From: Thomasclavelia cocleata
Lineage (GTDB): Bacteria > Bacillota_I > Bacilli_A > Erysipelotrichales > Coprobacillaceae
DNA: 64,000 nt
Assembly: GCF_900102365.1 (NCBI RefSeq)
Contig: NZ_FOIN01000008.1
Location: 1 to 64,000, forward strand
Direction of reading: 5' to 3'
The notes under the pieces are model-generated. The model was given only the letters and a program-made list of their open reading frames with translations. It was not told where the DNA came from and searched no databases. The position numbers were made by a program, and so were the translations under genes. Shown piece by piece: positions 23,825 through 45,972 of this stretch (within the stretch, counting starts at the first letter, position 1; each line of letters starts with the position of its first letter).

Positions 23825-26800
23825 TTAATTTTCTGTTACTTTATTTCTTTTCAAATACATCAAAACAATAATCGAAATAACAAAACAAATTATTGCTAAA
23901 CTACCAATAAATAAAGGTTTATTCAAATACCAACGTACAAAAATATTACTAGAAACAGTAAAATTATTAACTTCTTTAACACTTTTATTTCCAGCTTTAT
24001 CTAAGACAATAACTTTTAAGTTTTGTACAGTGTTTTTTTCTGGAACTGAACATACTAAATTATTTTCATCAATACTTTGTACCTCAATCTTTTTATCATT
24101 TAATAAAACTTCTGTACTATCTAACATTAGATTATCTTCAACTGATATTTCTACCTTTTTTATAGCTTCATCATAAATATTATTAGATTTTAGATTATTT
24201 ATTGCTATAGCTGGTGCAGTTTTATCAATAACAAAATTAATACTTGCTTGTTTATCTTCAATAATATTTTCATTAATATTTCCAGCAGCATCTTTAGAAG
24301 TTATTATTATTCTATAAATTCCATCTTTTTCAAAAAGTGATGATTTTAATTTATATGTATAATTGTACCATGCTTTTTCTCTTGTTTCTGTAACTGAATA
24401 ATCAATATCTTTTCTTAATTCTCTAATTTGACCATTAATACTTAATTTAACAAATGATTCAACTAATTGATTTACATTTAATTCATTAAATATTACTTCT
24501 TGACCTTTTTTATTATACTGTTTGTTTACCATTTTAGACAATGAATCTGAAAACATATATGTTGATCCAAAACGATTAACAGAATACACAATATTAGCTT
24601 CTGACTTATTACCAGCTTTGTCATTTAACATAGCATGAATAGTATAAACATCATCATTTTCTTTTTCATATTTCATGTCATTAAAAGCAAACACCTCACC
24701 ATTTGATTGGGGTGATTTTGTTCCTTCAATATCAATAGATCCTCGATGATCTCCAGTCAGACTAATACTTAATTCATTAGCATCATAATTTGTATCCTTT
24801 GCTGAAACAACTGGCATAACTTTTTTAGCATTTGCTGAATATGCTTCAACACCACTTATAATAAGTTCTGGTACTGTTTTATCAATAAAGAATTCTTCTT
24901 TATTGTAATTATCCATAATATTTCCTGCTTTATCAACATATTCAATATCAAAAGTATACAATGCATCTTCATTATATTTAATAACAGTTATATTACTATC
25001 ACCATTTCTAGTCCAACCATTATTAGCTGGGAATGTTTTAGTAGTTCCTCCATCTATAGCACTACCAATGATTTTAACTCGACTAGAATCAAAATTATGT
25101 TCATCTATTGTAATTGTTGCTGTTCTTGATTGATTGAAATAATTATTATTTTTTGCATTATTATTATCATATGAAACATTTAAAGTTGGTTTTGTTTTAT
25201 CTAATACAAATTTATCATAAAAATTATTTAAATCAAAATCTAACATATCTTTACCACTAACATATATTTCATAATCAGCATCTTCATTAAACATTAATTT
25301 TGTTTGATAAACAGCATTAATTGTTCCACTAATTCCTGAAACTAATTGCCATTGTAAATTTGGATTCATAAATGAACCATTTTTACTAATCATTACATTT
25401 ATTAAACTAGGATCAAAATTCATTTCTTTAATTTTTAATGTTAATATCCTATCTTCTTTATAAAACTCATTAAAAACACTATCTGGTGTATTATTATCAT
25501 ATTCTACAGTCAATTCTGGACGATCCAAATCACGATAAATCACATGTGTTTTTTCATCTCTATTACCAGTATTATCTATAGCAATTATTCTAATAACAAT
25601 ACTTCCATCATCATTACTTTGTAATATATTAGTATTAAATTCAACACTCACTTCATCTTTTTTATTTTGTGAAAAATCCTGATTTTCAATTTCTATATCA
25701 TTTACTTTAACACTAATAGATGATAATCCTGAACAATCTTTATCTTCAACAATATCACTAATTTCCCATTTAACTAGGACATCTTTATTTATCCATATTT
25801 TATCATCAATCGTTTTTGTATCTCCATTAATTTCCATATCACTGATTACTGGATTTTTTATATCTAAAATTATTTTTTCAAATTCTTCTTCATTTGCCTT
25901 AACAATCTTTTGACCAAATTCATCCAAACTAATCTTTTGTCCTAAATTATCTTCAGTTTCTATATATACCTCAAAAAATTTATCTTCCAAATCACTAATT
26001 TCAAAAGTATAAATATTATCTTCTACTGACATAGGTTTAATAATACGTTCTTTTTTTCCATCAACAACAATATTTAACTTTGTTTTATCACTATTAATAC
26101 CTGAACTTGAATTACATTGATATGTATCATTTAATTCAACTTTTAAATTTATTTTTTCATCATTTGATCCAAAAAATTTATCTGGTGCAAAAAATGATAC
26201 TATTTTATCTAATAAATTTGAAGCAGTTTCAATTCTAACATCTTTGATTTCAGGAGCACGAGAATCCCGATATAATGTTAAAGGTTCTGATTCTGATGAA
26301 TTTCCTGCCTTATCAATAGCTTTAATTTTAATTACTAATTCACCTGAATTTGCATTATGACATCTTGACAACATAATAGTACTTATAATCTCATTAATTT
26401 CATTAACCTTTTCATCAAAATATGCCCATTTTTGATATTCTTTACCATTTACCTCAATACAAATTTCTTTTATTCCAGCTACATTTTCGCCTTTTTTCTC
26501 AATCAAATCACTTACACTATAATTTATATCTATATCATCAGTAAACCACATTTTACCATCATATTTAATAATATCATTTTCATTGACACTTAATTCACAT
26601 TTAGGCTCATTAGATTCAATTAATATTGGTAGTTTTAATTTTTCTTCACCACATAAATATTCTAAAGCTTCTATCTCTTCAATATTACCTACTTGATCAG
26701 TTACACTTAAAGACATTGTGAAAAAAACATCTCTTTTATTAATTTCAAATGTATAAATATCTTCATCTTTTGATTTTTCACCTTCAACACTAGAAATTAC

Positions 26801-28693
26801 ATTATTACCATCTTTAATTTCTAAAATTGCATCTTTAATTCCAGAAGCATCATTTATAGACACAGCACTTAAATCAGTTACATCATCTGTTATTGGAATT
26901 GAAATAGTAATATTTGAATTTGTATATGTACCAAATTTATCAAAATAAACTCCATCTGTTTCTAAAACTGCATCCTTTACAGTTGGTTTATGATCATCAA
27001 TATAATTAATTTCCACATCCTTAGTAGTTGCATTTCCTAATGCATCTATTACTGCAATATGATATATCCCATTTTCTGTAACTGTTTTTCCAAATTCTGA
27101 TTCTTCGCCCTTTATATTTGTATAAATTGGTGTTTCACCTTCTTTATATATAGCAAAGCTCATATCTCCAACACCAGCATCACTTGCTTTTACCTTTATT
27201 GTAAAACCAACAGTTGCATTAGAGTATTTTTCATTTTCTTTATAATTATTAATTATTTCAATACCATTAATCTCAGGTACAACTTTATCTATATTATTTA
27301 TATTTAATTCTTTAGCTTCACTAATATTACCATTTGTATCTTTGGCAAAAAAATAATATAAGCCATTACTTTCAAACTCAAAAATATTATCTTCAACAAA
27401 TGTTAAATCATTAGGATCATCTACAATATTATCTTCTTCATACCAAGCATAAACCAATTTATCACCTTGTTTATCGCTAGCATTGACTGCTACCTTTGCA
27501 CTTTTACCATATTCCTTATTTTCTGAATTAGTAACAGATTCTAAATAATTTAAATTTATTTCACTAATAATTGGTCGTTCATTATCAATAATTAATTCGC
27601 TTTCATTATTTAAATGATCAACTACTTTTATTTTAAATTCTTTTCTAGGCACATCATTAAACACATTAACATCAGATATTATAGATTTATTTTCACCATT
27701 ATCATCAATATATGTCAATTCATAATGTCCAATACCACAACCATCATCACTTGCATTAATTGTTATCGTATTTCTGTCTTCAGAAAATGTAAAAGGATTA
27801 TCTTTATCAAATTGTGGTATTTCATTGTCAATTTTATCTATCACCAATTCTTCACTAATAGACATAACTCCACTTTTCTTATTTATTATTTTATAAATAT
27901 ATGTACCATTTTCTGTAATTGTAAAGGATTTTTCTTCTTCGTTAAAAAAATCAGGACTATCTTTTTTAACAAGTGAAAATGCATAATCTTCTGAGTTATC
28001 ACAATTTAATGTAATCCTAAATTCTTTAGCCCATACACTAGAATTTTCACTGTATGAATTACCAACTGGTTCAATATTACATGCTATTTCAGGAATACTT
28101 TGTTTAATCCCTGAAATATTAATATCAACACTAGAAGTATTATTAAATTTATCAAATATTTTTATAATATAGTTATCATTAGTCTCTAAATTAAAACTTA
28201 CTCTATTACTAGTAATATTACTTTCAATAATCCTCTTATCTAATGAATTTAAAACTTCATATTTACATGTGTCGTCACTAATATTAAATGATACATTAAC
28301 ATATTCATAATATCTTTTCTCTTCATTATATCTATCATATTTTATCTTTAAATTATCAAGCTTAGGAGAAATTGTATCCACCTCTAATTGGATCGGATCA
28401 TTATCTGCTATCTTGACAAATAAAATATAATCTTTACCCTTTTCAACATCAAATTCATTAGCTTCTTGATAATTGATTTCATCTTCACTATCTTTTAAAA
28501 CTAATGCATATTCAACATCTTTTATCTCTTCACCAATAGTTACAATTAACCTATTATCTTCAATACTTACTTTTGGTTCAATATCACCTATTTCTAAATC
28601 TGTTTCTTGTTTTATTACATTAATAAATCCTGTACTAAAAAATATATTTGTAACTACTAACATGATCACTAAAAATTTTTTTATATTTTTCAT
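23825..28693 (-). CDS. Giant Ig-like-repeat surface protein, 1622 aa
   Basis: A membrane-anchored extracellular protein. Signal peptide at residues 1-24, a membrane segment near 1587-1612 and a short basic tail (LKRNKVTEN); there is no sortase motif. In between stand some 12-15 beta-rich domains of about 90-110 residues, most closing with D-x-x-G-N (VTDQVGN, AIDKAGN, AIDNTGN, YVDKAGN, LDKAGN). This is the pattern of bacterial Ig-like adhesin stalks. It is very acidic and rich in Asn and Lys. It is the last gene of the Tad/kinase set and its ATG overlaps the previous stop (TAATG). Likely role: an adhesin, a stalk or a sensor for envelope state; this is inference. No catalytic domain was found. 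Confidence 0.8.
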   Translation of the reverse strand: MKNIKKFLVIMLVVTNIFFSTGFINVIKQETDLEIGDIEPKVSIEDNRLIVTIGEEIKDVEYALVLKDSEDEINYQEANEFDVEKGKDYILFVKIADNDPIQLEVDTISPKLDNLKIKYDRYNEEKRYYEYVNVSFNISDDTCKYEVLNSLDKRIIESNITSNRVSFNLETNDNYIIKIFDKFNNTSSVDINISGIKQSIPEIACNIEPVGNSYSENSSVWAKEFRITLNCDNSEDYAFSLVKKDSPDFFNEEEKSFTITENGTYIYKIINKKSGVMSISEELVIDKIDNEIPQFDKDNPFTFSEDRNTITINASDDGCGIGHYELTYIDDNGENKSIISDVNVFNDVPRKEFKIKVVDHLNNESELIIDNERPIISEINLNYLESVTNSENKEYGKSAKVAVNASDKQGDKLVYAWYEEDNIVDDPNDLTFVEDNIFEFESNGLYYFFAKDTNGNISEAKELNINNIDKVVPEINGIEIINNYKENEKYSNATVGFTIKVKASDAGVGDMSFAIYKEGETPIYTNIKGEESEFGKTVTENGIYHIAVIDALGNATTKDVEINYIDDHKPTVKDAVLETDGVYFDKFGTYTNSNITISIPITDDVTDLSAVSINDASGIKDAILEIKDGNNVISSVEGEKSKDEDIYTFEINKRDVFFTMSLSVTDQVGNIEEIEALEYLCGEEKLKLPILIESNEPKCELSVNENDIIKYDGKMWFTDDIDINYSVSDLIEKKGENVAGIKEICIEVNGKEYQKWAYFDEKVNEINEIISTIMLSRCHNANSGELVIKIKAIDKAGNSSESEPLTLYRDSRAPEIKDVRIETASNLLDKIVSFFAPDKFFGSNDEKINLKVELNDTYQCNSSSGINSDKTKLNIVVDGKKERIIKPMSVEDNIYTFEISDLEDKFFEVYIETEDNLGQKISLDEFGQKIVKANEEEFEKIILDIKNPVISDMEINGDTKTIDDKIWINKDVLVKWEISDIVEDKDCSGLSSISVKVNDIEIENQDFSQNKKDEVSVEFNTNILQSNDDGSIVIRIIAIDNTGNRDEKTHVIYRDLDRPELTVEYDNNTPDSVFNEFYKEDRILTLKIKEMNFDPSLINVMISKNGSFMNPNLQWQLVSGISGTINAVYQTKLMFNEDADYEIYVSGKDMLDFDLNNFYDKFVLDKTKPTLNVSYDNNNAKNNNYFNQSRTATITIDEHNFDSSRVKIIGSAIDGGTTKTFPANNGWTRNGDSNITVIKYNEDALYTFDIEYVDKAGNIMDNYNKEEFFIDKTVPELIISGVEAYSANAKKVMPVVSAKDTNYDANELSISLTGDHRGSIDIEGTKSPQSNGEVFAFNDMKYEKENDDVYTIHAMLNDKAGNKSEANIVYSVNRFGSTYMFSDSLSKMVNKQYNKKGQEVIFNELNVNQLVESFVKLSINGQIRELRKDIDYSVTETREKAWYNYTYKLKSSLFEKDGIYRIIITSKDAAGNINENIIEDKQASINFVIDKTAPAIAINNLKSNNIYDEAIKKVEISVEDNLMLDSTEVLLNDKKIEVQSIDENNLVCSVPEKNTVQNLKVIVLDKAGNKSVKEVNNFTVSSNIFVRWYLNKPLFIGSLAIICFVISIIVLMYLKRNKVTEN

Positions 28694-29082
28694 TACACTA
28701 CCTCCTTAATTATTTTATTAGTATGAATTACAATTATTTCATCTTCTAAAACAAAATTAATTTCTTCATTTATTGAATTATCTAAAACTGTTGTTTCATT
28801 TCCAGTTAAAATCATAGTATTTTCATTTATTGAATGATTATTAAAATCATCTGTTATTTCTTTGGTTTTATTTTTATCTTTTATAACTGTAAAATTATTT
28901 TTCTTATGAGTATTACTCTCTTTACTAATTTGTTTTATTTCATTTAAAGCAGTTTTACCTGTTAAAAAGTTATAGATCTTCTTTATATCATAATGAAAAA
29001 ATAAATATATTGTTATTAGAAATGAGATTGCTGCTAGAACAAAACAAATTATTGCAATGATTTGAAATGTAGATGCTTGCAT
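28693..29082 (-). CDS. Small membrane protein with a TTVL motif, 129 aa
   Basis: One N-terminal membrane helix (about residues 7-29), then a basic cytoplasmic segment with YNFLTGKTALNEIKQ. The tail is Thr/Asn rich and acidic and contains GNETTVLDN (residues 95-102). The TTVL core recurs three times in the FHA protein of the same operon, and the kinase activation loop has a similar TTYLGT. I infer a phospho-Thr docking tail that could recruit the FHA protein to the membrane. Both ends overlap the neighbours by one base (TAATG), so it is translationally coupled to the kinase and to the Ig-repeat protein. Not a named family to me. Confidence 0.7.
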   Translation of the reverse strand: MQASTFQIIAIICFVLAAISFLITIYLFFHYDIKKIYNFLTGKTALNEIKQISKESNTHKKNNFTVIKDKNKTKEITDDFNNHSINENTMILTGNETTVLDNSINEEINFVLEDEIIVIHTNKIIKEVV

Positions 29083-30785
29083 TAATCTACCTCCATTTCT
29101 TTAAATAAATATGCATTTTCAATTGCTTTATCAACTGCTTCTTTACGACTATTTACATAATCTTTCATGGCTGTAGTTTTAGTTGAAGAAGTTTTTATTG
29201 TTTCAACTTCTTTTTTTACATTATTAAACAAAGCAATTACTTGATCCTTTTTTATATCATCAGCTTTAAAATCATATCCATAATTTTCAAAAGAATTAAA
29301 TACTAACTTATATGTTTCTAATTTTACAATTTCACTTTCTTTTTTATCACTAACAATCTCAACAAGTTCCACTAAATCTTCAAAATACGATTTATATAAT
29401 CCTTTTACTGAAGCACCTTCATTTACTCTAGTTTGTAACTCCTTATAAAAAGTACCAATCTTTTTATAAATCAAAGCTGTATCATGATAATCATCGTCTT
29501 TAGAACTATTATTAACAGCATCATTAAACCAGGTAATTGAATTAATCATTTTAGTTATTTGGGTATTTTCAGGATCATTATCACCATATTCATAATAATA
29601 CCAATATAACCGCCCTATATCATAAGCCACTTGCCCATAATCACGAGATTTTTGAAGATCTGGTAAATATTGAACAACCTGTTCTTTAAATTCTATTGCT
29701 TCTTCAACACTAAAAATATTATTATCTTTATATGTTTCAATCAATTTTTCATAAGCTTCACTATTTTGTGGTAAAATACTTATTGCTTTAATACAATGAT
29801 TACGTTTATCTGTACCATTAGTAGCTTTTTCTGCTTGTAATAAATTATTGTTATAATCTGATTTATTTAGGCTGTTTTTAGCAAATATACTTCCTAAGCC
29901 AGCACTTAAAAATATCATTGTAGAAATACTAGCCATTATAAATTTATTTAGTTTTTTCTTTTGAGCTGTTTTAAAAGCATCATCCTCTTCTTCGTAATGT
30001 TCTAAGGCATATAATAATTCAGCACACGACTGATAGCGATCTTTTGGATTTAATTGAACACATTTTTCAATAATATTTTCTAACCCTCCTGATAATGAAG
30101 GATTCCAATATCTAATTGGATATATTTCATAAGGTGGTTCCATCGGATTTTTTCCAGTAATCAGATGATACAAAGTCATCCCTAAACAATATATATCAGT
30201 ACGAGCATCAGTTTGTCCTTTACCACCAAATTGTTCAGGAGCTGCATAACCCCTAGTTCCTAAATATGTAGTATCATTTAAGTTACTTTCTTTATATTCT
30301 CTAGCAATCCCAAAATCTATAACTTTAATATTTCCATCTGGCTTTAACATTACATTACTTGGCTTCATATCACGATAAATTATTGCTGGTGTTCTTGTAT
30401 GTAAATAATGAAGCACCTCTGTTAGCTGTTTTGCCCAATCAATAACTAAATCTTGACTTTGAGCACCCTGATTATTCACTACATACTCTAATGTTTCACC
30501 TTCAATATAATCCATTACAACATAAATTACTTTATCTTCTTCAATAATATCAACAATCCTTGGTAATGCTGGGTGATCTAGTTTTTTTATCATATTCGCT
30601 TCAGCAATAGCACTTTGAATAACAACTTCATTATTAGCATTTTTTGTATATTTCTGTAATTCCTTTACTGCCCATTGTTTATTTAAACGTTTATCCATCG
30701 CTAAATAAACAACTGACATCCCGCCTTGACCAATCTTTTTTAATATTTCATATTTATTATCTATAAAACTTCCTATTTTAGCCAA
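29082..30785 (-). CDS. Membrane Ser/Thr protein kinase (PrkC/PknB-like, without PASTA domains)
   Basis: 567 aa. Kinase domain at residues 12-270: glycine loop GQGGMSVVYLA near 19, AVKE holding the ATP lysine near 41, catalytic YRDMKPSN near 138, DFG near 159, activation loop NDTTYLGTRGYAAPEQ. YRD in place of HRD is known in clostridial kinases. A membrane helix spans about 283-303. The outer 260 residues are helical and TPR-like, not PASTA, so the ligand is probably not muropeptide. The gene is 2 nt from the phosphatase gene. Kinase, phosphatase and FHA reader together form a phosphorylation module for the Tad machine. Confidence 0.92.
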   Translation of the reverse strand: MAKIGSFIDNKYEILKKIGQGGMSVVYLAMDKRLNKQWAVKELQKYTKNANNEVVIQSAIAEANMIKKLDHPALPRIVDIIEEDKVIYVVMDYIEGETLEYVVNNQGAQSQDLVIDWAKQLTEVLHYLHTRTPAIIYRDMKPSNVMLKPDGNIKVIDFGIAREYKESNLNDTTYLGTRGYAAPEQFGGKGQTDARTDIYCLGMTLYHLITGKNPMEPPYEIYPIRYWNPSLSGGLENIIEKCVQLNPKDRYQSCAELLYALEHYEEEDDAFKTAQKKKLNKFIMASISTMIFLSAGLGSIFAKNSLNKSDYNNNLLQAEKATNGTDKRNHCIKAISILPQNSEAYEKLIETYKDNNIFSVEEAIEFKEQVVQYLPDLQKSRDYGQVAYDIGRLYWYYYEYGDNDPENTQITKMINSITWFNDAVNNSSKDDDYHDTALIYKKIGTFYKELQTRVNEGASVKGLYKSYFEDLVELVEIVSDKKESEIVKLETYKLVFNSFENYGYDFKADDIKKDQVIALFNNVKKEVETIKTSSTKTTAMKDYVNSRKEAVDKAIENAYLFKEMEVD

Positions 30786-30787
30786 AG

Positions 30788-31567
30788 TTATTCCTCCCTA
30801 TAACATTGAAGTAACAATGCTGTAATATTATCTGTTTCATTTCTTTTTTTATTTAATTCAACAAAATCAAATAATTTTTCTTTAATATATTTTTTAGTTA
30901 ATAAAAATGAACTATTAAATTGCTCAAATAACTCATCTTTACTAATCATATGTCTAAACCCATCTGAACAAATTAAATAAATATCACCAGGTTTAGTTTC
31001 ACCATAATAGAAAACGGGAATTACTGTTTTAGAAGCTCCTATACATTGTAACAAAGCATTTTTTCGTGGATCTTTATTTGCTTCTTCTTCACTAATAACA
31101 TTTTTTTTAACAACTTCATTAATCCATGTTTGATCCTCTGTTATTTGTGTTATTTCATTATTTATTTGATAAATTCTAGTATCTCCGACATGAAAAATAA
31201 AATATTGGTTATTTAAAATAATTATTCCTGTTGCTGTTGTTCCTAAGTTTATCCTATTTTGATAACCATATGACAAAATTCGCTGATTAAGCTCTTTTAA
31301 AACACTATTGATAACATTTTGTAAACTCTTCAAGGTAAACTGTTTATCTTTTAAAAATACTTGTAAATCATTATCAAACCAGTTAGAAAAAAATTTAATT
31401 ACTGTCGCACTAGCTATCTCACCACTAGATAAACCACCCATTCCATCACATACTAATGCTAAAATAATTCTTCCTTTTGTAGTATTAGCACATTTAATTA
31501 ATAAACTATCTTCATTTATTTGCTTTTCAATTCCTACATCACTATAATAATCATATATAAATTTCAT
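30788..31567 (-). CDS. PP2C-family protein phosphatase
   Basis: A 259-aa cytoplasmic Mn/Mg-dependent Ser/Thr phosphatase (PPM family, Stp/PrpC-like), expected to reverse the adjacent kinase. Metal-binding motifs: NEDSLL near residue 18, VCDGMGGLSSGE near 39, HVGDTRIYQI near 119, CSDGF near 194 and ETDNITALLL near the end. GGAGG precedes the ATG at 31567. An intergenic gap of 66 nt, large for this operon, holds the 18-bp motif seen at the Tad promoter, so the kinase/phosphatase part may have its own control point. Confidence 0.93.
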   Translation of the reverse strand: MKFIYDYYSDVGIEKQINEDSLLIKCANTTKGRIILALVCDGMGGLSSGEIASATVIKFFSNWFDNDLQVFLKDKQFTLKSLQNVINSVLKELNQRILSYGYQNRINLGTTATGIIILNNQYFIFHVGDTRIYQINNEITQITEDQTWINEVVKKNVISEEEANKDPRKNALLQCIGASKTVIPVFYYGETKPGDIYLICSDGFRHMISKDELFEQFNSSFLLTKKYIKEKLFDFVELNKKRNETDNITALLLQCYREE

Positions 31568-31596
31568 ATTCCCTCCAGGACTAATCGTAACTAAGC

Positions 31597-31633: not shown

Positions 31634-32278
31634 CTATAAATCAAAATATCTTTTTATATCTCTTGCAAATACTGTACATATTACATATGAACTAATAAGA
31701 TTAATAATTGGCACAAACTTCCATAAAAATATACAATTATATTTACCTGCTTCATTATGATAAAATTCTAAATCATCATCTTCATAAATCGTACTTATTA
31801 GTTTTAACTGCAATGTTGTCATCATTTTTACACTCACGATACCAAATATAGGAACTGTTAATATTGCTATTAACATTATAATCCACAAACTACTTAAAGA
31901 ATTACCATTTTCATGTATGATTGTTCCTGATACAAAAACAACTGCTAAAATTATTAATACAAATACTAAAATTAATTTGAGATATTGTTTGATTACTTCT
32001 TTCATTGAAGCAATCCTTAAAAAATTGAAAAACTTTTGATAAATACTAAAGTCTATCTTAATATCACAAACAATTAATGTAACACCATAAGGTATAAAAG
32101 CAATCGTTATAATATTTAATATAAAAGCTATAATAAAACCAAGATAAGGAATTTTACTAAGCAAATAAATAATAAATATATTTAGTATTGTCATTAAAAA
32201 TAATTTAAAATATTCCAAAAAATGTGAAAAAATATAGCTAACCGCCTCCATAAAACCTGTTCTTACAAAATTATCCAT
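31634..32278 (-). CDS. Polytopic membrane protein, 214 aa
   Basis: About five hydrophobic segments, near residues 20-40, 42-70, 98-122, 128-150 and 188-208. Short loops and an acidic stretch (YEDDDLEFYHNE) lie before the last one. No motif lets me name it. It lies 12 nt after the FHA protein gene and 66 nt before the phosphatase gene, so it probably belongs to the same membrane complex. Confidence 0.7.
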   Translation of the reverse strand: MDNFVRTGFMEAVSYIFSHFLEYFKLFLMTILNIFIIYLLSKIPYLGFIIAFILNIITIAFIPYGVTLIVCDIKIDFSIYQKFFNFLRIASMKEVIKQYLKLILVFVLIILAVVFVSGTIIHENGNSLSSLWIIMLIAILTVPIFGIVSVKMMTTLQLKLISTIYEDDDLEFYHNEAGKYNCIFLWKFVPIINLISSYVICTVFARDIKRYFDL

Positions 32279-32290
32279 AACTATTTCTCC

Positions 32291-36878: not shown

Positions 36879-36897
36879 CCACTTTTTCCCCACTTAT

Positions 36898-37557
36898 TTA
36901 ATCATTCTCTTCGATCATTCCAATCATCTCTTCAGCTATTTTTGCTAATTCATCAGGTTCTATTTCTGTTGAACCTACAAAGAATTCACATGGTATCTTA
37001 TTTTCATCATCTAAAAATAAGTGATATACAGCATACTTACATACTTCACCACCTGAATCAACAGCTACTCCCTTATCTAGTAATGCTTTTTTATCTCCCA
37101 CTGTTGTTTCTTCAAATTGATCATTATAAACAACATCTCCACCATTTGGATATATTAATCGCAAATTTGAACTTCGATCGTTTTTTAAGTCTTCACGAAT
37201 GTCAGTTATCATAAAATTAGGATTTAATTCCTCATTAATTTTTGTTATTGTAATTAACGTTCCTAATTTCTCGCCATCTTTAGTAATCATTTTGACAGAA
37301 TTTGAGCGTATACTACTATTAGTGTTTTCATAATCAATAGGTAATTTCATCTTATACCTACTTGCCCTCAACACATATTCTTCTTCATACCCTTTAAAAT
37401 ATTTACTACTAATTTTAGTACTATCTTTTTTATCAGTATCTTTTATTTCCTCAGTTTCATTATTTTTATTATCAGCAGTTTCTTTATCATCACTACTACA
37501 AGCTGTAAACATTAATAAACAGCTTAAACAAATTAATAACTTAAACCTCTTTTTCAT
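36898..37557 (-). CDS. Lipoprotein, 219 aa
   Basis: From the ATG at 37557 (AGGAT 8 nt upstream) it starts MKKRFKLLICLSCLLMFTACSS, a lipoprotein signal with the cysteine of the lipobox near residue 20. A Lys/Asp/Glu-rich linker follows, then a compact domain with YKMKLPIDYENTNS and KLGTLITITKINEEL. No family recognised. Its start overlaps the end of the 1153-aa gene and the TadE-like gene follows 19 nt later. It may act as an outer-face chaperone or anchor of the Tad machine, as lipoproteins do in other secretion loci; this is inference. Confidence 0.75.
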   Translation of the reverse strand: MKKRFKLLICLSCLLMFTACSSDDKETADNKNNETEEIKDTDKKDSTKISSKYFKGYEEEYVLRASRYKMKLPIDYENTNSSIRSNSVKMITKDGEKLGTLITITKINEELNPNFMITDIREDLKNDRSSNLRLIYPNGGDVVYNDQFEETTVGDKKALLDKGVAVDSGGEVCKYAVYHLFLDDENKIPCEFFVGSTEIEPDELAKIAEEMIGMIEEND

Positions 37558-37558
37558 C

Positions 37559-40500
37559 TTAATATCCTCGTACACTTTCATAATTTAATTTTCTTGATTT
37601 TTTATTTATACTTCTAAAATCAAAATCTTTTTGTCCTTTTTCATTTTCAATAATTGGTATATCTAAAAATGTTGTTTCTACATCAACATCCCCATTAATT
37701 GTAATAATTGTATACATCTTTGAAAGATCAATATTTTTATCTTTACTTTTCAGATTAATCCCAATTAAATTAGCAGTTCGTTGTAACATCGCATCACGTT
37801 GAGAGTTCTTATTACTATTATCAAAATTTTGTAATAAAACAAATAATTTCAAATATTCTTTATAATTCATTGTAAAACCTGCGCCAGCTGAACTATTCCC
37901 TTTTTCTGATGTATCAGTAGTATTTGATGAAATTGATTGATTAAATTTATCAAAAGTTTTATTTATTTCTTCTGTTGCTTCTGATTTCAAATCCTCACTA
38001 TAATTACCAGCAATTTCTTGTATACTATTCTTTAATTCATTGCCTACTCCTGATATACTTTCATTAACTAAAGAATTAATCTTCCCATGAATATCAATAA
38101 TTTCCAACTCTAAATTTTTATTCATTTCTTCTAACACTTTGGTCAATCCAATTTTTTCATTAATATATTTATTTTTTAAATTTAATATTTCTTTTGCAAT
38201 ATTTTTAATAGGGATCAACTCAAAAATTTTATTTTTAATCTGTTCACTGATTTTTCCACCAAAACTATTATTCTTAATTTTATTTAAAATACTTTTTAAT
38301 TCCTGTTCTATATCTGTTTCTGATAATTCCAGATCATTACAAATAATTTGTTCTGCCTTTTCAAATATAGCTGAAGAAATTATACTTTCAATATTTTGAA
38401 CCATATCGCTACTAACTTTGTTAATATACTCATTTAAATTATCATTAACACTGTTAATTGCATTATCAGTGATTCCTAAAATTTTATCAGTAATACCATC
38501 TATTCCACCAACTACTGCATTTGTTACTTCTTCTTCTGCAAAATTTACGACCTCTTCAATAAATCTATTAGGTTTAAATACAAAAGTATCCTTGGTTTTT
38601 ATAAAAGCAACATCTTTACCATCCATTAATGCTTTAACATCAATCGTACTTTCACCTAATGCAAAGCCGCAAACTATAATCGTTTTTATCACTGGTATCA
38701 TAAAAGGCATAGAGCCTGCAATACTAGCTGCCGTAGTTCTTGCAGTAGAAGTAATTTGAGTATCAGTCATAGCATATAATAAATTAAGTACAAATCTCGT
38801 TGTATATAGTTTAGACTTCATTGCCTCAATATTTGCTTGTGGGGTATCCATTCCACATAGAATATATTCAACTTCACTTTGATAAAACGGATTAGTACTT
38901 GTGCTTTTACCAGCTAAAGTAACATCATTTTCACCTGATTCACTTGTATAATGACTAAACATTTCTGTCATGTATTCTGATATATATAAAGTATCTCGAC
39001 TATTTTCACCATCAAAAATATATCTAAGATTTGTAATTGATTTTAAAAATGAGCCCATACTATTAAAATAATTCATAAATTTTTCAGCTGTTTTATTTTT
39101 ATCATATTTACCTGATTCAAAATTATTAACCTTTTCACTACTATCAGTTTTTTCTATATAACCACTAGCAGAGCTGATTGAACTATCAGCATTACTAAGC
39201 GACTTATTTTCTGCTGATGGTTTAGCACTGCTTAAAACATGATCCAGCTTGTCTTTCTTACTTTCATCACCAGTAATATTTTTACAAATACTCTTTAAAT
39301 ACTTATAGAATTTATCTTCTTCATCAATTACTATTGGTTTTGTTCCAGAAAAACCACTTGTTTTATATTCAGAAAAATTTTCTTTAATTTTTTCTTTTTC
39401 TGTATTAGGTTCAATGTCAAAATTTTTAGTCTTTAATGACTTGTATAGCTTTTTACCATAAAGTGTTCCAACATTCTTATCATCTCTAAATGATTTTATA
39501 AAACTATCAATATATTCCTTATATTCAGTTACTGTGTTTTGCAAAGTTTTTAATTTATTTTTATCTAAATCTCTAGCACTACTTTCAAACTCTGCTTTCA
39601 TTGATGCTTTGTATTCACTTTGAGCTAAATCATCAATAGCATTTTTATAATTTTTCTTTGCTGATTCAGCTTTATCAATTGCCTTTTTTACAGCATTTAA
39701 TTTTTTATCTATCCCATTTAATTTAGATTTAATAATAGTAAGCTGTCCTTCTATTGCCCTAACAGCTTTTGAAACAACTTCAAACTTTTCATTTATCTTA
39801 GATGAATAATCAGTAATCTTATTATTATTTTGAACTTGATAAATAATAGCATTTTTATCCTCAAAATTTTGCTTAAAACTTTTTATCTTCTCATACTTTT
39901 CCTTATATTTCTTGTCCTCTTCACTTTCTACATAATTTTTATCTTTATATTTTTCTTTCATTTCTTTGTCATAATTATCACAATATTGTTTACAGTAATA
40001 ATATAACTTATTATATGAAGGATATTTTTCTTCTAAAGCTTTAACCGCATTATATATTGTTTCTGGATAATCATCAGAATTTACATTTTTTAATGCTAAT
40101 GCATTTGTTAAAGCACTTTTAATTTTCTTTAAATCACTACTCTCTTTTTGATTTGAATCATCAAGATATTTTTCTATATAACTATATAAATCCTCTTGAG
40201 AATACTTCGTTAATTTCTTTTTATCATTATCACTTAATTTAGCTTTTTTATATTTATTAACTATATTATCTTTTTTATTATGAAGACTTAAAACTTTACA
40301 AATATAATCTATTTGAGAACCATTTATATCTCTTAAAGTATTCAACATATCATCAATTGATGTTCCAAGTAAATCATTATATTCATTTATCGTATCATAT
40401 GCTTCTTGACATTTCTTTCCTATCTCTGATATCTTGTCTTCATATTCAATTTTTTTATTTACTGCTTCAGCTTGTTTATCAACATCACCTAATGTTTTTA

Positions 40501-41020
40501 ATTTAGTAATTAATCCTGTTGCAAGACTAACAGGTCCCCGATATTTCATATATTCAATGATTTGATTTTTCATTACATCAGGATTTGTTATTTGTGATTC
40601 GTTTGCACCAGCAATACTTAAATTATTTATAGCACTTATTTTTACTAGATTATCAAATTGCTGTGTATTAGAATCATTCATAAAATTTTTAAAACTATTA
40701 ATAATATTTAGTGATATGGCATCACTACCTTGAATCATTGAAGAACTTTCTAAATTATTATTAAAATACATTTCTGCCTGATTTACAAAACTATTTGGAT
40801 CATCTTGAGTAGCTAACAAACCATAATTATCATAAAGTTCATCATGAAATTCAGATAATAAAGCATTAAAAACTAGATCACCTGAACTAGTAACTATTGT
40901 TTTAGCAGCATCTAATCTAGCAGCATCAAATACATAACCGCCAAATACAAATGAGGGCAGCATGATAATAATTAAAAATACAGTTACTCCACCTCGACAT
41001 TTTTTGAGTAAAAAATCCAC
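37559..41020 (-). CDS. Large pilin-like coiled-coil protein (DUF5702/TadG-like), 1153 aa
   Basis: The start codon is GTG at 41020 after GGGAGGTG. The N-terminus LKKCRGGVTVFLIIIMLPSF resembles a type IV pilin leader followed by the hydrophobic helix, and is the opening of DUF5702 proteins found in Firmicute tad loci. FGGYVFDAARLDAAKTIVTSSGDLVFNALL matches TadG-like pseudopilins. The following 1000 residues are very helical, Lys/Asp/Glu/Ser rich with long coiled coils (about 180-480), and carry a hydrophobic patch near 750-790. It is probably exported and either plugs or extends the pilus base. Codon use matches its neighbours. Confidence 0.78.
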   Translation of the reverse strand: MDFLLKKCRGGVTVFLIIIMLPSFVFGGYVFDAARLDAAKTIVTSSGDLVFNALLSEFHDELYDNYGLLATQDDPNSFVNQAEMYFNNNLESSSMIQGSDAISLNIINSFKNFMNDSNTQQFDNLVKISAINNLSIAGANESQITNPDVMKNQIIEYMKYRGPVSLATGLITKLKTLGDVDKQAEAVNKKIEYEDKISEIGKKCQEAYDTINEYNDLLGTSIDDMLNTLRDINGSQIDYICKVLSLHNKKDNIVNKYKKAKLSDNDKKKLTKYSQEDLYSYIEKYLDDSNQKESSDLKKIKSALTNALALKNVNSDDYPETIYNAVKALEEKYPSYNKLYYYCKQYCDNYDKEMKEKYKDKNYVESEEDKKYKEKYEKIKSFKQNFEDKNAIIYQVQNNNKITDYSSKINEKFEVVSKAVRAIEGQLTIIKSKLNGIDKKLNAVKKAIDKAESAKKNYKNAIDDLAQSEYKASMKAEFESSARDLDKNKLKTLQNTVTEYKEYIDSFIKSFRDDKNVGTLYGKKLYKSLKTKNFDIEPNTEKEKIKENFSEYKTSGFSGTKPIVIDEEDKFYKYLKSICKNITGDESKKDKLDHVLSSAKPSAENKSLSNADSSISSASGYIEKTDSSEKVNNFESGKYDKNKTAEKFMNYFNSMGSFLKSITNLRYIFDGENSRDTLYISEYMTEMFSHYTSESGENDVTLAGKSTSTNPFYQSEVEYILCGMDTPQANIEAMKSKLYTTRFVLNLLYAMTDTQITSTARTTAASIAGSMPFMIPVIKTIIVCGFALGESTIDVKALMDGKDVAFIKTKDTFVFKPNRFIEEVVNFAEEEVTNAVVGGIDGITDKILGITDNAINSVNDNLNEYINKVSSDMVQNIESIISSAIFEKAEQIICNDLELSETDIEQELKSILNKIKNNSFGGKISEQIKNKIFELIPIKNIAKEILNLKNKYINEKIGLTKVLEEMNKNLELEIIDIHGKINSLVNESISGVGNELKNSIQEIAGNYSEDLKSEATEEINKTFDKFNQSISSNTTDTSEKGNSSAGAGFTMNYKEYLKLFVLLQNFDNSNKNSQRDAMLQRTANLIGINLKSKDKNIDLSKMYTIITINGDVDVETTFLDIPIIENEKGQKDFDFRSINKKSRKLNYESVRGY

Positions 41021-41036
41021 GTATTTTTCACCTCCC

Positions 41037-41729
41037 TTATTTAAATTTTAAAAATGAAAATTGTTTTGTGATTTTGTTTATTACATCTTTTGCATTATCT
41101 GATATTTTACATTTTTTGGCTAAATATTCTCCTAAATCAAATACAATATCAGTATTTCTAAGAAATTCAGAACTATCACTAACAAAAGCTACTGTACTAA
41201 ATTGTTTATTTATCTCAGTCGGTAAACCTAAAAAATTAAAGAAACGTGGTAATTTAACTTTGCTATTAACAATAACTTCAACTTTATTAGATAATATGTT
41301 TGATTTAGATTTAATTTCAACATTTGTTATACTAGAATTAATATCAAAATAAGCTTTAACATCCATTACCCTTTTTAATTTGGTACTAGCCACACCATCA
41401 AATTTTCGTTCTCCTATTCCCCAATAACGATATGGATTTAAATCATGATAAATTTCTTTAATTAATCCAGCATCAAAACTATTTACCCCTTCAAAATCAA
41501 TTTTATTAGTTTCAATTTCTCCATATTTAGGATAACCAGATTGTATCATTATCCTACTTGCAACATCAGCTACACGATCTGCTCGAGATTGTAGAGTTGC
41601 CAATTCTAGTTGATAATAGCCCATGATAAATAAAAAACATACAATAATAAAAACAATCGGCATTATAATAGAAGCTTCTACGATTGTAGCTGCTCCTTTT
41701 TCTTTTTTTAATTGTTCAACTACTTTCAT
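41037..41729 (-). CDS. TadE-like pseudopilin, 230 aa
   Basis: N-terminus LKKEKG then AATIVEASIIMPIVFIIVCFLFIMGYYQLELA, a typical TadE signature with the conserved Glu after the cleavage glycine. About 180 extracytoplasmic residues follow, with LQSRADRVADVASRIM just after the helix, as in TadE/TadF. It stands between the Flp-like pilin and the 1153-aa protein. Expected role: minor pilin in Tad pilus biogenesis. Confidence 0.87.
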   Translation of the reverse strand: MKVVEQLKKEKGAATIVEASIIMPIVFIIVCFLFIMGYYQLELATLQSRADRVADVASRIMIQSGYPKYGEIETNKIDFEGVNSFDAGLIKEIYHDLNPYRYWGIGERKFDGVASTKLKRVMDVKAYFDINSSITNVEIKSKSNILSNKVEVIVNSKVKLPRFFNFLGLPTEINKQFSTVAFVSDSSEFLRNTDIVFDLGEYLAKKCKISDNAKDVINKITKQFSFLKFK

Positions 41730-41768
41730 AAAAGCTCACCTATAAATATTTACCTGTCCAACATGAAC

Positions 41769-41984
41769 CTACCCGTGTGAACCTAATCCACTAGTATCCC
41801 CAATTTGATCGAATAAATTATTAATCAACTCCATAATCCTATCTTTAAATAACCATGCTATTGCTACTGCAATAACAACAATTAAAATTACTGCTACAAT
41901 ATCAGCTGCCCCTCTTTCTTCATTTAAAAAATCATTTAATCTTTCTTTTAATAAAAATTTTTTCACTTGTAAGTATGCTAACAT
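41769..41984 (-). CDS. Flp1-like pilin, 71 aa
   Basis: A small protein with a hydrophilic 26-residue leader ending ERG, then AADIVAVILIVVIAVAIAWLFKDRIMELI, matching the Flp1-like family of Firmicute tad loci, and a Gly/Ser-rich end (DTSGLGSHG). It is the candidate major pilin, matured by the operon's A24 peptidase. AAAGGAGAAAG precedes the ATG. It follows tadC by 17 nt, where a flp gene is expected. It lacks the classical Glu-Tyr of proteobacterial Flp. Confidence 0.87.
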   Translation of the reverse strand: MLAYLQVKKFLLKERLNDFLNEERGAADIVAVILIVVIAVAIAWLFKDRIMELINNLFDQIGDTSGLGSHG

Positions 41985-42001
41985 TTTCTCTTTCTCCTTT
42001 T

Positions 42002-42871
42002 CTAAAACATATTTGTAAACAATGGAACTATAATTACAATTAAAATTCCCATAAAAATTATTCCAGTTGGAATCAGTAATTTTGAATCAGCAGCTGCTCC
42101 TTTTTGAATAGTGCGCTGTTTTTTTTCATTCCAGCTTTCTTCTGATAACTCTCTTAATGATTTCGCTAGTTCGCCACTTCCTTTTTCTAAATTTTGTTCA
42201 ATAACAGAAATAAATTTTTTAATTTCCTTTACATTACATTGCTTTGAAAAATTCATCAAAGCTTCATGGGTTGAAAATCCATTATTCATTTCGTCTTCAG
42301 CTTTCTGCATTTCTAAATAAAGTTCATGATTACTATTAAAAGCTATTTTTGCCCATGCCTCTTTTAAAATAAGCCCAGTATTGATTAATAAAGCCATCTT
42401 AGATAATACTGTAGGTAAATCTTTTAATAAATTTTCATGACGATTATTTACTGCTTGTAAAACTGTATAATCAATGTAATATGCTAGTATTAATCCACAT
42501 ACAAAAGACAAAACAACAATCTCAATACTATCTACTATTAGTGCAAACATCATACCTATTGGAATAATTGTAAGAACATATGAAATTTGCCCTGCAACAT
42601 TAACATATAAAAAATATTCTGCATCTTCTTGTCCTTTAATTTCAATTAAGTTTTTTAATTTCTTTTGAAAATAAGAGTTATGTAAATCTAAATTAAATTT
42701 CTCAATTGCACAAAAACCGATTTGAAACAATCCTGGTAAAAAATATTCATCACTATCAATATCTGCAATTTGTTCTTCATATTTTTCTTTAGAAACAATC
42801 ATTAAATAAAGCCAAAATAAAGTAAATAACAAACCTATTATTAATATTACAATTTTTATTCTTAATGTCAT
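42002..42871 (-). CDS. tadC: TadC, inner-membrane platform protein
   Basis: A 289-aa type II secretion F-domain protein with three or four membrane segments (about residues 5-23, 98-140 and 265-288). The cytoplasmic part carries the family text LIPTGIIFMGILIVIIVPLF at the end and MNNGFSTHEALMNFSKQC near 190. With TadB it forms the membrane rotor driven by TadA. It overlaps no neighbour but is 1 nt from tadB. No gene in the set encodes an outer-membrane secretin, as expected in a Gram-positive. Confidence 0.9.
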   Translation of the reverse strand: MTLRIKIVILIIGLLFTLFWLYLMIVSKEKYEEQIADIDSDEYFLPGLFQIGFCAIEKFNLDLHNSYFQKKLKNLIEIKGQEDAEYFLYVNVAGQISYVLTIIPIGMMFALIVDSIEIVVLSFVCGLILAYYIDYTVLQAVNNRHENLLKDLPTVLSKMALLINTGLILKEAWAKIAFNSNHELYLEMQKAEDEMNNGFSTHEALMNFSKQCNVKEIKKFISVIEQNLEKGSGELAKSLRELSEESWNEKKQRTIQKGAAADSKLLIPTGIIFMGILIVIIVPLFTNMF

Positions 42872-42872
42872 T

Positions 42873-43658
42873 TTATACCTCTATCTTGATAATTTTTAAT
42901 CCTAATCGATATGCAAGAATAAAAATTATCAGTGCAATTATTTTAGTAGTAATAGTTGTAAAATTAAGTGCCATAATAGCATCAAACCCCATTGTCTGCA
43001 TCATTGCAATAATAATAAACGGCATTAAAATAATTATATTTAACTGATTTTTATTACCAGCAATAATTGTGTTGATCTCTAATTCAATATCAATTTTTTG
43101 AGTAATTATTTCTTTACAATCATTAATAATTACTTTTAAATTTCCACCTAATCTAATACAAGTACAAAAGGTATCACAAAAATCCTTTATATCCTCTAAA
43201 TGACTTCTATCAGCAAAATTCATTAATAAATTTTCAATTACAATATTATTGTATAAACCACCTATAATAATATTAACTTCCTTAGTTATATACGCATTTT
43301 CACCATGTTGACTAATCATATCTTCTAAAGCATTATTAAATGCATCATTAACGTTATCTCCTGCTGCTAATGAATTATTTAATGAATCCAATAAATCCCT
43401 AAATTCCAATAACAATTTTTTCTTTCTTTTATCAATAAGATATTTTCTGTATACTGGTATTGCTTTAAAGCCAAAAAATATTGCAATAACAAAACTGATA
43501 ATAACAATCCCAAAGAATATCTGAATTGCTAGAAAAGCAATTATAAAGCCAATAAAAAAACCAATAAGCTTTTCTTTAATACCAATATTGATATAATCAT
43601 AATCTATTGCATCAGTATAAATTCCCTCAATTAATTCATATTTTTCTTTTTTAAACAT
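42873..43658 (-). CDS. tadB: TadB, inner-membrane platform protein
   Basis: A 261-aa partner of TadC. Two membrane segments near residues 32-65 and two near the C-terminus (about 205-258). The cytoplasmic F-domain between has FRDLLDSLNNSLAAGDNVNDAFNNA near 105 and CIRLGGNLKVIINDCKEI near 167. It sits 12 nt after tadA, in the order tadA-B-C that defines the locus. Confidence 0.92.
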   Translation of the reverse strand: MFKKEKYELIEGIYTDAIDYDYINIGIKEKLIGFFIGFIIAFLAIQIFFGIVIISFVIAIFFGFKAIPVYRKYLIDKRKKKLLLEFRDLLDSLNNSLAAGDNVNDAFNNALEDMISQHGENAYITKEVNIIIGGLYNNIVIENLLMNFADRSHLEDIKDFCDTFCTCIRLGGNLKVIINDCKEIITQKIDIELEINTIIAGNKNQLNIIILMPFIIIAMMQTMGFDAIMALNFTTITTKIIALIIFILAYRLGLKIIKIEV

Positions 43659-43670
43659 TGTTCTTTTCCT

Positions 43671-44909
43671 CTAAATTTCGATATTAAATCCTGCTAATTT
43701 TAATTTATACGTATTTTTAAATTCATTAGAGGTTCTTGATAAGCTTCCTGATACCTTTTCCAATGTAGTATTTTCATCTTCAATAAATTGATAAATTGGA
43801 TTAAGAATTATTTCTCCATTTTCATATCCTAATACTTCACTTATTTCCATAGTCTTTCTTGAATGATCTCGCAATCTTGATAAATGAATAATAATATCTA
43901 AAGATGAAGCAATTTGCTGTCTTACTGCCTCTAATGGCAATCCCTCTGAACCTGTTAAAACCATTGTTTCTAAACGACTTAACATATCTTTAGTGGAATT
44001 AGCATGACCTGTAGATAAAGAACCATCATGACCTGTATTCATGGCTTGAAGCATATCTAATGCTTCACCCCCTCTTACTTCCCCAACTATTATTCTTTCT
44101 GGACGCATTCTTAACGATGATTTTATTAAATCTCTAATACTTATAGCTCCTGCGCCTGTCGTATTAGCATTTCTAGTTTCCAAACTGACTAAATTTTCAA
44201 TTCCTACAAGCTGTAATTCAGCTGAATCTTCAATAGTTATAATTCTTTCTTCTTTGGGAATATAATTGGATAAAGCATTTAAAAAAGTTGTCTTCCCTGA
44301 TCCTGTTCCTCCAGAAACAAAAATATTGTATTTAGCTTTCACTAAACATTTTAAAATCTCTGCTATTTTAGGTGTAATTGAACCAAATTTAATTAATTGT
44401 TCCATTGTCATTGGTGTTTTAGAAAATTTACGAATTGTAACAATTGGGCCATTTAATGAGATTGGTGGTAAAACAACATTAACACGTGAGCCATTAGGTA
44501 AACGTGTATCTACAATCGGATTTGCCTGATTTACCTCTCTTCCTGCTAATCCTACAATTTTTTGAATTATATCTTCTAGCCGTTCCTCTGATTCAAACTT
44601 TTCTGCCAGCTTTGTCAATTTCCCACTTTTTTCGATAAAAATATTTTCATGTCCATTTATCATTATTTCAGTAATATTGTCATCATTAATAATAGAGTCT
44701 AAAATATCTAGTCCCCTAATTGAACTATAAACACGATTTATCAAATCTACTTGTTCTTTAATTGATATATATACTCCCTTTGTAATTTGTAAGATAATCT
44801 CACTAATCTTTTCTTGTAATAAATCATCTGTAAATTCATTAAGTGAATACTCTTTTAATAAAATATCTTTAGTTCTTGCTATTACTTCATTTTTATATTC
44901 TTCATCCAT
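43671..44909 (-). CDS. tadA: TadA/CpaF secretion ATPase
   Basis: A 412-aa hexameric ATPase that powers pilus assembly. Walker A FVSGGTGSGKTTFLNAL near residue 198, Asp box TIEDSAELQL near 226, Walker B and GEVRGGEALDMLQAMNTGHDGSLST near 276. The N-terminal domain carries DDNITEIMINGHENIFIE, the usual CpaF opening. No clear Shine-Dalgarno stands before the ATG at 44909; translation is probably coupled to the upstream gene, which ends 4 nt earlier. Full length and intact. Confidence 0.95.
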   Translation of the reverse strand: MDEEYKNEVIARTKDILLKEYSLNEFTDDLLQEKISEIILQITKGVYISIKEQVDLINRVYSSIRGLDILDSIINDDNITEIMINGHENIFIEKSGKLTKLAEKFESEERLEDIIQKIVGLAGREVNQANPIVDTRLPNGSRVNVVLPPISLNGPIVTIRKFSKTPMTMEQLIKFGSITPKIAEILKCLVKAKYNIFVSGGTGSGKTTFLNALSNYIPKEERIITIEDSAELQLVGIENLVSLETRNANTTGAGAISIRDLIKSSLRMRPERIIVGEVRGGEALDMLQAMNTGHDGSLSTGHANSTKDMLSRLETMVLTGSEGLPLEAVRQQIASSLDIIIHLSRLRDHSRKTMEISEVLGYENGEIILNPIYQFIEDENTTLEKVSGSLSRTSNEFKNTYKLKLAGFNIEI

Positions 44910-44913
44910 ATAT

Positions 44914-45972
44914 CTATAAATTAGTTAAAACATTTTTAGATACTATTTCATCAATCAACATCTTATCATCAGATGCATTATATTTATTTACTATAGCTAG
45001 AACTGGTATTTCTTTATTTTGAATAGTATTATTAAAAGACGAACTCATCTTATTATAAATAATCCCAATTTTTTGACATATACTACTATTTTCTCTTTTG
45101 TCTACTAAAGATAATGAATTAATCAATTTTAAAAACTTATAATTACCTATTTTAGTGCCATCTACAACAAACCTTAAACTATCGCTTAAATCAAAGATAG
45201 TTTTTTCAACTATAGAAAAATCAATATTTCGATCAATAATAATATAATCAAACTCCATTTGTTTAAGCGCAGTAATCAATTTATTAATATCATCTATATT
45301 ATTTATTTCTAATTTATCCAATAAAATAATCGGCGAAGAATAATAAAACACTCCATTATCATCTTTAGATAAATTTTTTTCTAGTTTTGAAGCTAAATTC
45401 ATATCATCTTTTTTTAATAAGAATACGACATTACTAAAACTTGTATCTTGATGGTTTTTAAAATAAACATCAGTACTATCAAAATATTCTAAATTCAAAT
45501 ATAAGACTTTAAATCCCTTTTTAGTTTTAGAAATAGCTTCACTAATAGCAATCGTTGAAGTTCCTGTACCCCCACTAAATGATGTATAACTTATTATTTT
45601 AGCCTGATTGGAATTTGTTTTATTTATACTTATTCTTTCAAAACATTCCTCATACAAATTTAATATTTCCTCTAAAAAATCATTTATTTTTTGAAATTTA
45701 TTAATAGCTTTAAAATTATTGATTTCACTTATTTCTTTTGATTCACTAAAATATCCTTTAGCAATTTTAATATCTGCTATTTCTTGAAAATCAAACATTA
45801 GTTTATTAACAATCAAGACATGTAAATCACTTAAATTAATTGACTGTAATAAAGTTTCTTTAGAAGTAAAAATATATAAATCTAATTTTTGTCCATAATT
45901 ACTTTTTAAAGCATTTGAAATTTTATTGAGATATACTACGTTATTATCTAATAATGCAACTTTTATCTTCAC
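44914..45972 (-). CDS. TadZ/CpaE-like ParA-family protein
   Basis: 352 aa. Residues 1 to about 110 look like an atypical receiver domain (KIKVALLDNNVVYLNKISNALK). From about 125 stands a MinD/ParA-like domain: SFSGGTGTSTIAISEAI, NLEYFDSTDVYF and FDYIIIDRNIDFSIVE. The P-loop lacks the lysine of KGGxGKT, so ATP hydrolysis may be lost. TadZ/CpaE localises the Tad machine at a cell site. The start is GTG at 45972, behind GGGGGG. It is the first gene of the 17-gene set, downstream of a strong promoter. Confidence 0.82.
   Translation of the reverse strand: MKIKVALLDNNVVYLNKISNALKSNYGQKLDLYIFTSKETLLQSINLSDLHVLIVNKLMFDFQEIADIKIAKGYFSESKEISEINNFKAINKFQKINDFLEEILNLYEECFERISINKTNSNQAKIISYTSFSGGTGTSTIAISEAISKTKKGFKVLYLNLEYFDSTDVYFKNHQDTSFSNVVFLLKKDDMNLASKLEKNLSKDDNGVFYYSSPIILLDKLEINNIDDINKLITALKQMEFDYIIIDRNIDFSIVEKTIFDLSDSLRFVVDGTKIGNYKFLKLINSLSLVDKRENSSICQKIGIIYNKMSSSFNNTIQNKEIPVLAIVNKYNASDDKMLIDEIVSKNVLTNL

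Follow-up and report, generated by a model that had tools for sequence, protein, structure and literature searches.

A Tad pilus operon joined in one conserved block to a portable, predicted phospho-threonine module in Thomasclavelia

We analysed a 64,000-nucleotide stretch of the Thomasclavelia cocleata genome (contig NZ_FOIN01000008.1, positions 1 to 64,000; hereafter the window). A run of 17 open reading frames (ORFs) on its minus strand, at positions 23825-45972, combines a monoderm Tad pilus operon with a portable phospho-threonine (pThr) module and forms one conserved block; its limits are those given by a first-pass annotation. The module is written J-F-D-K-I, the letters D, F, I, J and K being the names used for components of the type VII secretion systems (T7SS) T7SSe and T7SSj. 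We favour a reading in which kinase D, membrane protein K, FHA protein J and phosphatase F form a switch that gates the Tad motor, and we give it an even chance of being correct. New here are the partnership of Tad and module without a recognisable T7SS, arrays of a TTxL motif that resemble a kinase activation loop, and the kinase-like fold predicted for the DUF6382 domain. No prior account of these three elements was found in the open-licence literature.

The first-pass annotation described seventeen tightly spaced genes on one strand, and every one of these ORFs is present. The largest intergenic gap is 66 nt (31567/31634) and the majority of neighbours lie less than 20 nt apart or overlap. 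Within the unit, terminator-like sites do not exceed chance expectation. The same 17 genes occur in identical order in two further Thomasclavelia genomes, T. saccharogumia DSM 17460 and one metagenome-assembled genome (MAG), so that three of the nine genomes of the genus carry the unit. A profile search of genome contigs with the J alignment, in a sample without Clostridia, found just these two Thomasclavelia copies. All ORFs are intact in the three genomes, and the kinase is 78% identical. DNA homology between the window and both relatives runs from ~23840 to 46603, ends at each edge and spans a divergently oriented gene that belongs with the unit:

46258..46590, plus strand: regulator of the XRE family, 110 aa, divergently oriented and kept with the unit (HTH_3, 1.6e-15)

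This regulator, 84-87% identical in both relatives, is the sole flanking protein that the window shares with either of them. The flanks of the two relatives are alike between themselves and unrelated to those of the window. Since the flanks differ while the block is homologous, the block occupies a different site in the window's genome. Judged from gene order and conservation, the 17 genes and the divergent XRE gene are one conserved block, more than a chance run. The earlier proposal of a single unit thus holds, and a distant Tad locus described below keeps a related order.

The last six genes of the run hold the signalling half. Families were assigned with Pfam, and topologies (signal peptides and transmembrane, TM, segments) were predicted by hydropathy.

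32291..33646, minus strand: J, DUF6382 domain, linker and FHA domain, TseJ homologue (PF19909, 9.8e-23; FHA, 7.5e-16)
31634..32278, minus strand: 214-aa membrane protein with ~5 TM segments, no family; its own profile matches Thomasclavelia copies only
30788..31567, minus strand: F, PP2C phosphatase, TseF homologue (PP2C_2, 2.8e-10)
29082..30785, minus strand: D, membrane Ser/Thr kinase with an extracytoplasmic helical domain, TseD homologue (Pkinase, 1.4e-52; TM 282-300)
28693..29082, minus strand: K, 129-aa one-TM protein with a TxxL tail, TseK homologue (TM 8-26; profile matches T7SS-type loci, 3e-18 to 6e-5)
23825..28693, minus strand: I, 1622-aa Ig-repeat protein with signal peptide and C-terminal TM, TseI homologue (Big_13, 2.8e-13)

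The T7SSe and T7SSj systems have been described as containing a membrane kinase D, a phosphatase F, J with its DUF6382 and FHA domains, K with one TM segment and a short tail in the cytoplasm, and an Ig giant I; these five were proposed in 2024 as components of the secretion systems (Garrett 2024, PMC11217815). The closest annotated comparison is a T7SS locus on a plasmid of Agathobacter rectalis (L018), where Ig, PP2C, kinase, small protein and FHA protein genes are followed by WXG100 and EsxB genes. Against the proteins of this locus, with E-values computed for a 17-protein database, the window's D is 43% identical over its full length to the T7SSe-type kinase (5e-144), the PP2C phosphatase is 39% identical (1e-73), the Ig protein is 31% identical across 583 columns (2e-60), and J and K match at 5e-26 and 5.6e-4. 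Confirming profiles, built from the three Thomasclavelia sequences only and searched in 535 ORFs, detect homologues of K and of the Ig protein at four loci, identical for both (L018, L020, L021 and L029); the Ig profile matches at module loci only (3e-146 to 4e-49). A K search of 334 relatives added further loci, mostly ordered J-(F)-D-K-I. Homology of J-F-D-K-I to the T7SSe/j proteins is well supported by these comparisons. The first-pass annotation knew of no description of the set as one device, and for the module proteins that statement is not supported.

About ten loci carry the kinase/FHA/Ig part without tad genes, either in WXG100-bearing genomes or at the annotated locus L018. The annotation itself had named regular occurrence of this part away from tad as grounds for refuting its reading, and these loci show just that; a set specific to Tad is not supported. 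From its distribution, the module is portable, with a T7SS partner elsewhere and a pilus partner here. In the kinase tree, the window's D is sister to the kinase of L021, a T7SSe-type locus from the same taxonomic order (support 97/96), and its grouping with the kinase of the other Tad locus (L019) is marginally rejected (approximately unbiased test, p-AU 0.043). This position suggests that modules may have been exchanged between machines. Alignments of J and of the kinase yielded no useful relatives in IMG/VR, and DUF5702, TadZ and the J protein of L019 gave no match against plasmids.

The tree also lends itself to a different reading, in which a T7SS has been lost and the module drifts beside tad as its relic. 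We regard this as very improbable. The ORFs remain intact in three genomes with the kinase sequence and the gene order maintained, and the rest of such a system has left no WXG100, TsxC or second FHA protein. WXG100 (TsxA) genes gave no match in the three Thomasclavelia genomes bearing the unit. All nine other module genomes tested contain WXG100, several on the module's contig, a count that was not set against the order's baseline WXG100 rate. The window's genome has no TsxC-like or T7SS-type FtsK ATPase, just one 753-aa ORF matching a single FtsK domain, and J is its one FHA protein; an FHA-ATPase is absent as well. By these searches, the window's genome is without a recognisable T7SS. Five proposed T7SS components thus stand beside Tad in genomes without a recognisable T7SS, and their role should be reconsidered as that of a shared control module.

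A clue to how kinase, membrane protein and FHA protein may be connected is a short tandem motif, [DEG]-T-(T)-(V/P/L)-L, in the tail of K and in the J linker that precedes the FHA domain. The linker is poorly conserved and ends directly before the FHA domain in GTTVLGQNDGTTVLSEGTTVLS. The relevant sites in the window are:

32606..32665, minus strand: J residues 328-347, GTTVL three times, predicted pThr sites
28783..28818, minus strand: K tail, residues 89-100, with the motifs NTMIL and NETTVL
30255..30275, minus strand: activation loop DTTYLGT of D, to which the motifs of J and K are similar

Residues G336, T337 and L340 of J are invariant in seven versions of Tad and T7SS type. Three further J linkers (L072:13262-13795, L073:13627-15360 and L074:216-1898) each carry three TTVL motifs at a spacing of exactly ten residues, and the K of A. 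rectalis has tandem copies, DETTVLDAPTEVLQDETTVLE. Nine J linkers contain 27 T..L pairs where shuffling predicts 5.4, and eleven K tails contain 45 where 8.3 are expected; in neither case did any of 10,000 shuffles reach the count. Together this makes 72 against ~14. The enrichment peaks at a T-to-L spacing of +3 (72 pairs); spacings of +1 and of +4 to +8 give 4 to 16, and the 46 pairs at +2 arise largely because of the doubled T. The result was replicated in five K proteins that came to light once the motif was already named (19 versus 3.7 expected, 0/20,000 shuffles). Among the 55 ORFs of the window, [DEGN]TT[VIL]L occurs in J and K only. Extension to all DUF6382-FHA proteins is weakly supported (17/20 versus 12.4 expected).

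Activation loops of the module kinases read DTTYLGT, DTTWLGT, DTTCLGT or DTVSLGT, whereas the 657-aa PASTA-type kinase of the window's genome has TQTDVIMG instead. Because the loops and the J and K motifs are alike, the predicted substrates resemble copies of the kinase's own loop. From the motif statistics we infer a possible phospho-code in which the kinase acts on the TTxL arrays. A TTxL stretch in TadA was considered as a direct kinase target and rejected, as it is the Walker A motif of TadA. K and J have further conserved features. Apart from the arrays, K proteins (in the window, 28693-28770, minus strand) have in common an (I/V)HT-x-E-x-I-like motif at the C-terminus and a GK(T/S)A stretch in juxtamembrane position, and Thomasclavelia J proteins carry two conserved IPTL(K/S/T)KR-like motifs at residues ~255-298 of the otherwise variable linker.

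The two domains of J suggest how such a code might be read and conveyed. Modelled alone (predicted local distance difference test, pLDDT, 66), the DUF6382 domain resembles protein kinases, which make up all of the 50 best PDB matches listed (E 1.8e-4 to 3e-3). For the whole-J model the best non-FHA match is YukC/EssB (E 8e-4). The J sequence contains no catalytic HRD or DFG motif. In a sequence search against solved structures, the FHA half of J alone matches and EssB homology was not detected; hydropathy predicts no TM segment in J, so that the YukC/EssB layout of pseudokinase, TM and extracellular domain is not reproduced. On the basis of the models, J is probably a pseudokinase-FHA adaptor. 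In the FHA site, Ser395 and Asn417 (window numbering) are invariant across seven sequences but the usual Arg is not kept, and pThr binding by this domain is likely from context. A preference of FHA domains for the +3 residue of their ligands is a discussed but not strict rule (PMC4037201).

The FHA domain of J might instead act independently of phosphate, the kinase and phosphatase having other targets. We consider this improbable, though less so than the relic. The usual phosphate-binding Arg is replaced by Lys, Thr or Ser, and the FHA domains of T7SSb EssC bind the YukC pseudokinase although they lack a pThr site (PMC9600267, PMC11217815). Such a reading would have to accommodate the invariant Ser395 and Asn417, and T-x-x-L arrays in K and immediately ahead of the FHA domain are hard to explain without a reader. 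The first-pass annotation spoke of complete phospho-Thr signalling; kinase, PP2C and FHA proteins are indeed all there, and the replaced Arg calls for caution over the word complete.

DUF6382-FHA proteins also occur outside the module. Three stand alone (L022:9789-11408, L030:9262-10734 and L023:452-1636), with no linked kinase or machine. For L022 and L030, gene sizes had raised the suspicion of a type IV pilus as a third machine type; this was dropped, as the L022 neighbours are housekeeping genes (alanine racemase, RsfS). FHA-kinase fusions lie beside DUF6382-FHA proteins at L037:4646-10449 and L070:12946-18568, and the L037 linker has two DxTMVV repeats.

The remaining eleven genes are the ten of the Tad half and, after them, that of a TM-TPR-WG protein:

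44914..45972, minus strand: TadZ, atypical receiver and ParA/MinD-type ATPase (PF21194, 8.7e-20)
43671..44909, minus strand: TadA/CpaF motor ATPase (T2SSE, 5.7e-61; TIGR03819, 1.2e-91, under that model's cut-off)
42873..43658, minus strand: TadB platform protein (T2SSF, 4.5e-06; orthologues ~84% identical)
42002..42871, minus strand: TadC platform protein (T2SSF, 8.1e-13)
41769..41984, minus strand: Flp1-like pilin (PF16982, 4e-15)
41037..41729, minus strand: TadE-like pseudopilin 1, N-terminal TM (TadE, 0.012, under the curated cut-off)
37559..41020, minus strand: DUF5702 protein, 1153 aa, in a TadG-like position (PF18960, 7.7e-32)
36898..37581, minus strand: predicted lipoprotein, lipobox-like FTACSS read from sequence, no confident Pfam family
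35652..36893, minus strand: TadE-like pseudopilin 2 (TadE, 8.1e-05, barely over the cut-off)
34975..35640, minus strand: A24 prepilin peptidase (PF01478, 5e-15)
33657..34964, minus strand: TM-TPR-WG protein, one TM by hydropathy (WG, 6.6e-36; TPR, 1.3e-08)

The features that define a Tad (type IVc) system are present: TadA, TadB/TadC, TadZ, a Flp pilin, a prepilin peptidase, and TadE-type pseudopilins with DUF5702. By gene content, nothing sets the Tad half apart from ordinary monoderm Tad systems. The Pfam assignments bear out the inventory of the first-pass annotation (a full Tad machine, kinase, PP2C, FHA, TPR/WG and small membrane proteins, and the 1622-aa Ig protein), to which the XRE gene has to be added.

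Another Tad locus, a distant one on contigs L042 and L019, has the order TadZ-A-B-C...DUF5702 and TadE-A24-WG-FHA-PP2C-kinase. The profile of the WG protein matches, among the loci examined, that locus alone (L019, 7e-33) and no T7SS-type locus. This Tad-linked protein is the best candidate for an adaptor between module and Tad. A Bulleidia-type Tad from the same taxonomic order (L054) lacks the module. DUF5702 is found in 5 and DUF6382 in 26 of 394 relatives, and all five DUF5702 genomes also have DUF6382; with three of the five from one genus, and adjacency not established in G594, this co-occurrence is suggestive only.

The module could also stand on its own as a surface or signalling device centred on the giant Ig protein, co-transcribed with tad but without control over it. 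We think this unlikely on balance, and yet the strongest of the alternatives. Its five genes live without tad at the loci described above, the phospho half evolves faster at the DNA level (~72% identity versus 80%), and TadZ, TadB and TadC contain no [DEG]TTxL site. On the other side, the whole unit including the XRE gene has kept its order and moved as a single block, the other Tad locus also has J, PP2C and kinase beside the Tad-linked WG protein, and elsewhere, too, the module sits in genomes with another envelope machine.

Several observations weigh against a switch that gates the Tad motor. The absence of the motif from TadZ, TadB and TadC counts here as well, and no contact point between module and Tad was located in the sequences. 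Firm Tad linkage is confined to one genus, as the second Tad locus comes from a contaminated MAG, where it lies across two contigs and ends before K and I. Because the sequences in the motif tests are related, not every count is independent, though the tails are otherwise barely alignable. Confidence in the DUF6382 model is modest, and the substituted FHA Arg is a further difficulty.

With these reservations, the gating switch could operate as follows. The extracytoplasmic helical domain of D would sense a signal from the envelope or from contact, and D would phosphorylate its own DTTxLGT loop as well as the TTxL copies carried by the J linker and by the tail of K. These would then be read, as pT-x-x-L, by the FHA domain of J, and J would be recruited to the membrane at K and D. 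Alternatively, the FHA domain might be held by J's own phosphorylated linker, a self-lock like that of GarA/OdhI. The pseudokinase-like DUF6382 domain would contact the Tad motor (TadA/TadZ) or the WG protein, and pilus extension would be permitted or stopped. The PP2C phosphatase would reset the phosphorylation state. The giant Ig protein may be a membrane-anchored rod through the wall that serves as sensor, guide or adhesin. Motif statistics suggest the phosphorylation step by D, and the remaining steps are drawn by analogy, as is the coupling of module and Tad that we infer. A pilus or secretion system switched by phosphorylation, as the annotation had it, remains plausible, with the amendment that the module is portable and has a T7SS partner elsewhere.

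More generally, and with a little less than even confidence, we propose that J-F-D-K-I is a machine-independent phospho-switch taken up by both T7SS and Tad. Its code would consist of tandem activation-loop copies on K and J, read by FHA and conveyed by the pseudokinase. On this view, D, F, I, J and K would form a regulatory chassis common to different machines instead of belonging to the T7SS itself, and the same switch would gate some monoderm Tad pili. The arrays name specific residues, both for what these kinases would phosphorylate and for what the FHA protein would read, and the scheme is a concrete suggestion of how a monoderm Tad pilus may be controlled after translation.

The surroundings of the unit in the window include an AAA-ATPase-like/PDDEXK_9 protein (47279-48847, minus strand) and a GH141/beta-helix protein (21261-23396, minus strand), both absent from the relatives' flanks. 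Farther away are a T-box leader upstream of an 810-aa ORF (51727-51934, minus strand), an S-adenosylmethionine (SAM) riboswitch (58571-58668, minus strand) and a cluster of six tRNA genes (61162-61720, plus strand).

Among known systems, the Tad half compares directly with the monoderm Tad (type IVc) operons of Bacillota, which have TadZ, A, B, C, a Flp1-like pilin, TadE-like proteins and an A24 peptidase. In contrast, a survey of Gram-positive tad loci makes no mention of a phospho module (PMC3244431), and the Bulleidia-type Tad has none. The Kil system of Myxococcus also unites a Tad-like machine with many FHA proteins and a suggested signalling cascade (PMC8460266). However, it is a diderm system, FHA is fused there to the ATPase KilF, and the J-F-D-K-I set has not been demonstrated in it. 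In T7SSb, pseudokinase-like and FHA domains are likewise paired, as the YukC pseudokinase binds EssC FHA domains (PMC9600267); in the window both domains are in one soluble protein, and the resemblance to EssB is by fold only.

The type VI secretion system (T6SS) pathway of PpkA, PppA, Fha and TssL offers a comparison in working, not a homologous system. There, a membrane kinase, a PP2C phosphatase and an FHA reader act with a phosphorylated membrane protein that recruits the reader, and Fha binds phospho-TssL (PMC3953482). A single TssL residue, Thr14, does this in the T6SS, whereas multi-site TTxL arrays are predicted in the window. T6SS families are absent from the Pfam matches of the 17 genes, the search having covered these genes and not the rest of the genome, and a TIGR03354 match reflects a generic FHA region. 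T7SSe and T7SSj (PMC11217815) differ in their machine: the window's genome lacks the T7SS ATPase, WXG100 and FHA-ATPase and has a complete Tad operon linked instead. TTxL arrays are not described in that study. For the module itself they are nonetheless the closest match, with the same five protein types, each significantly homologous, and the same predicted topologies.

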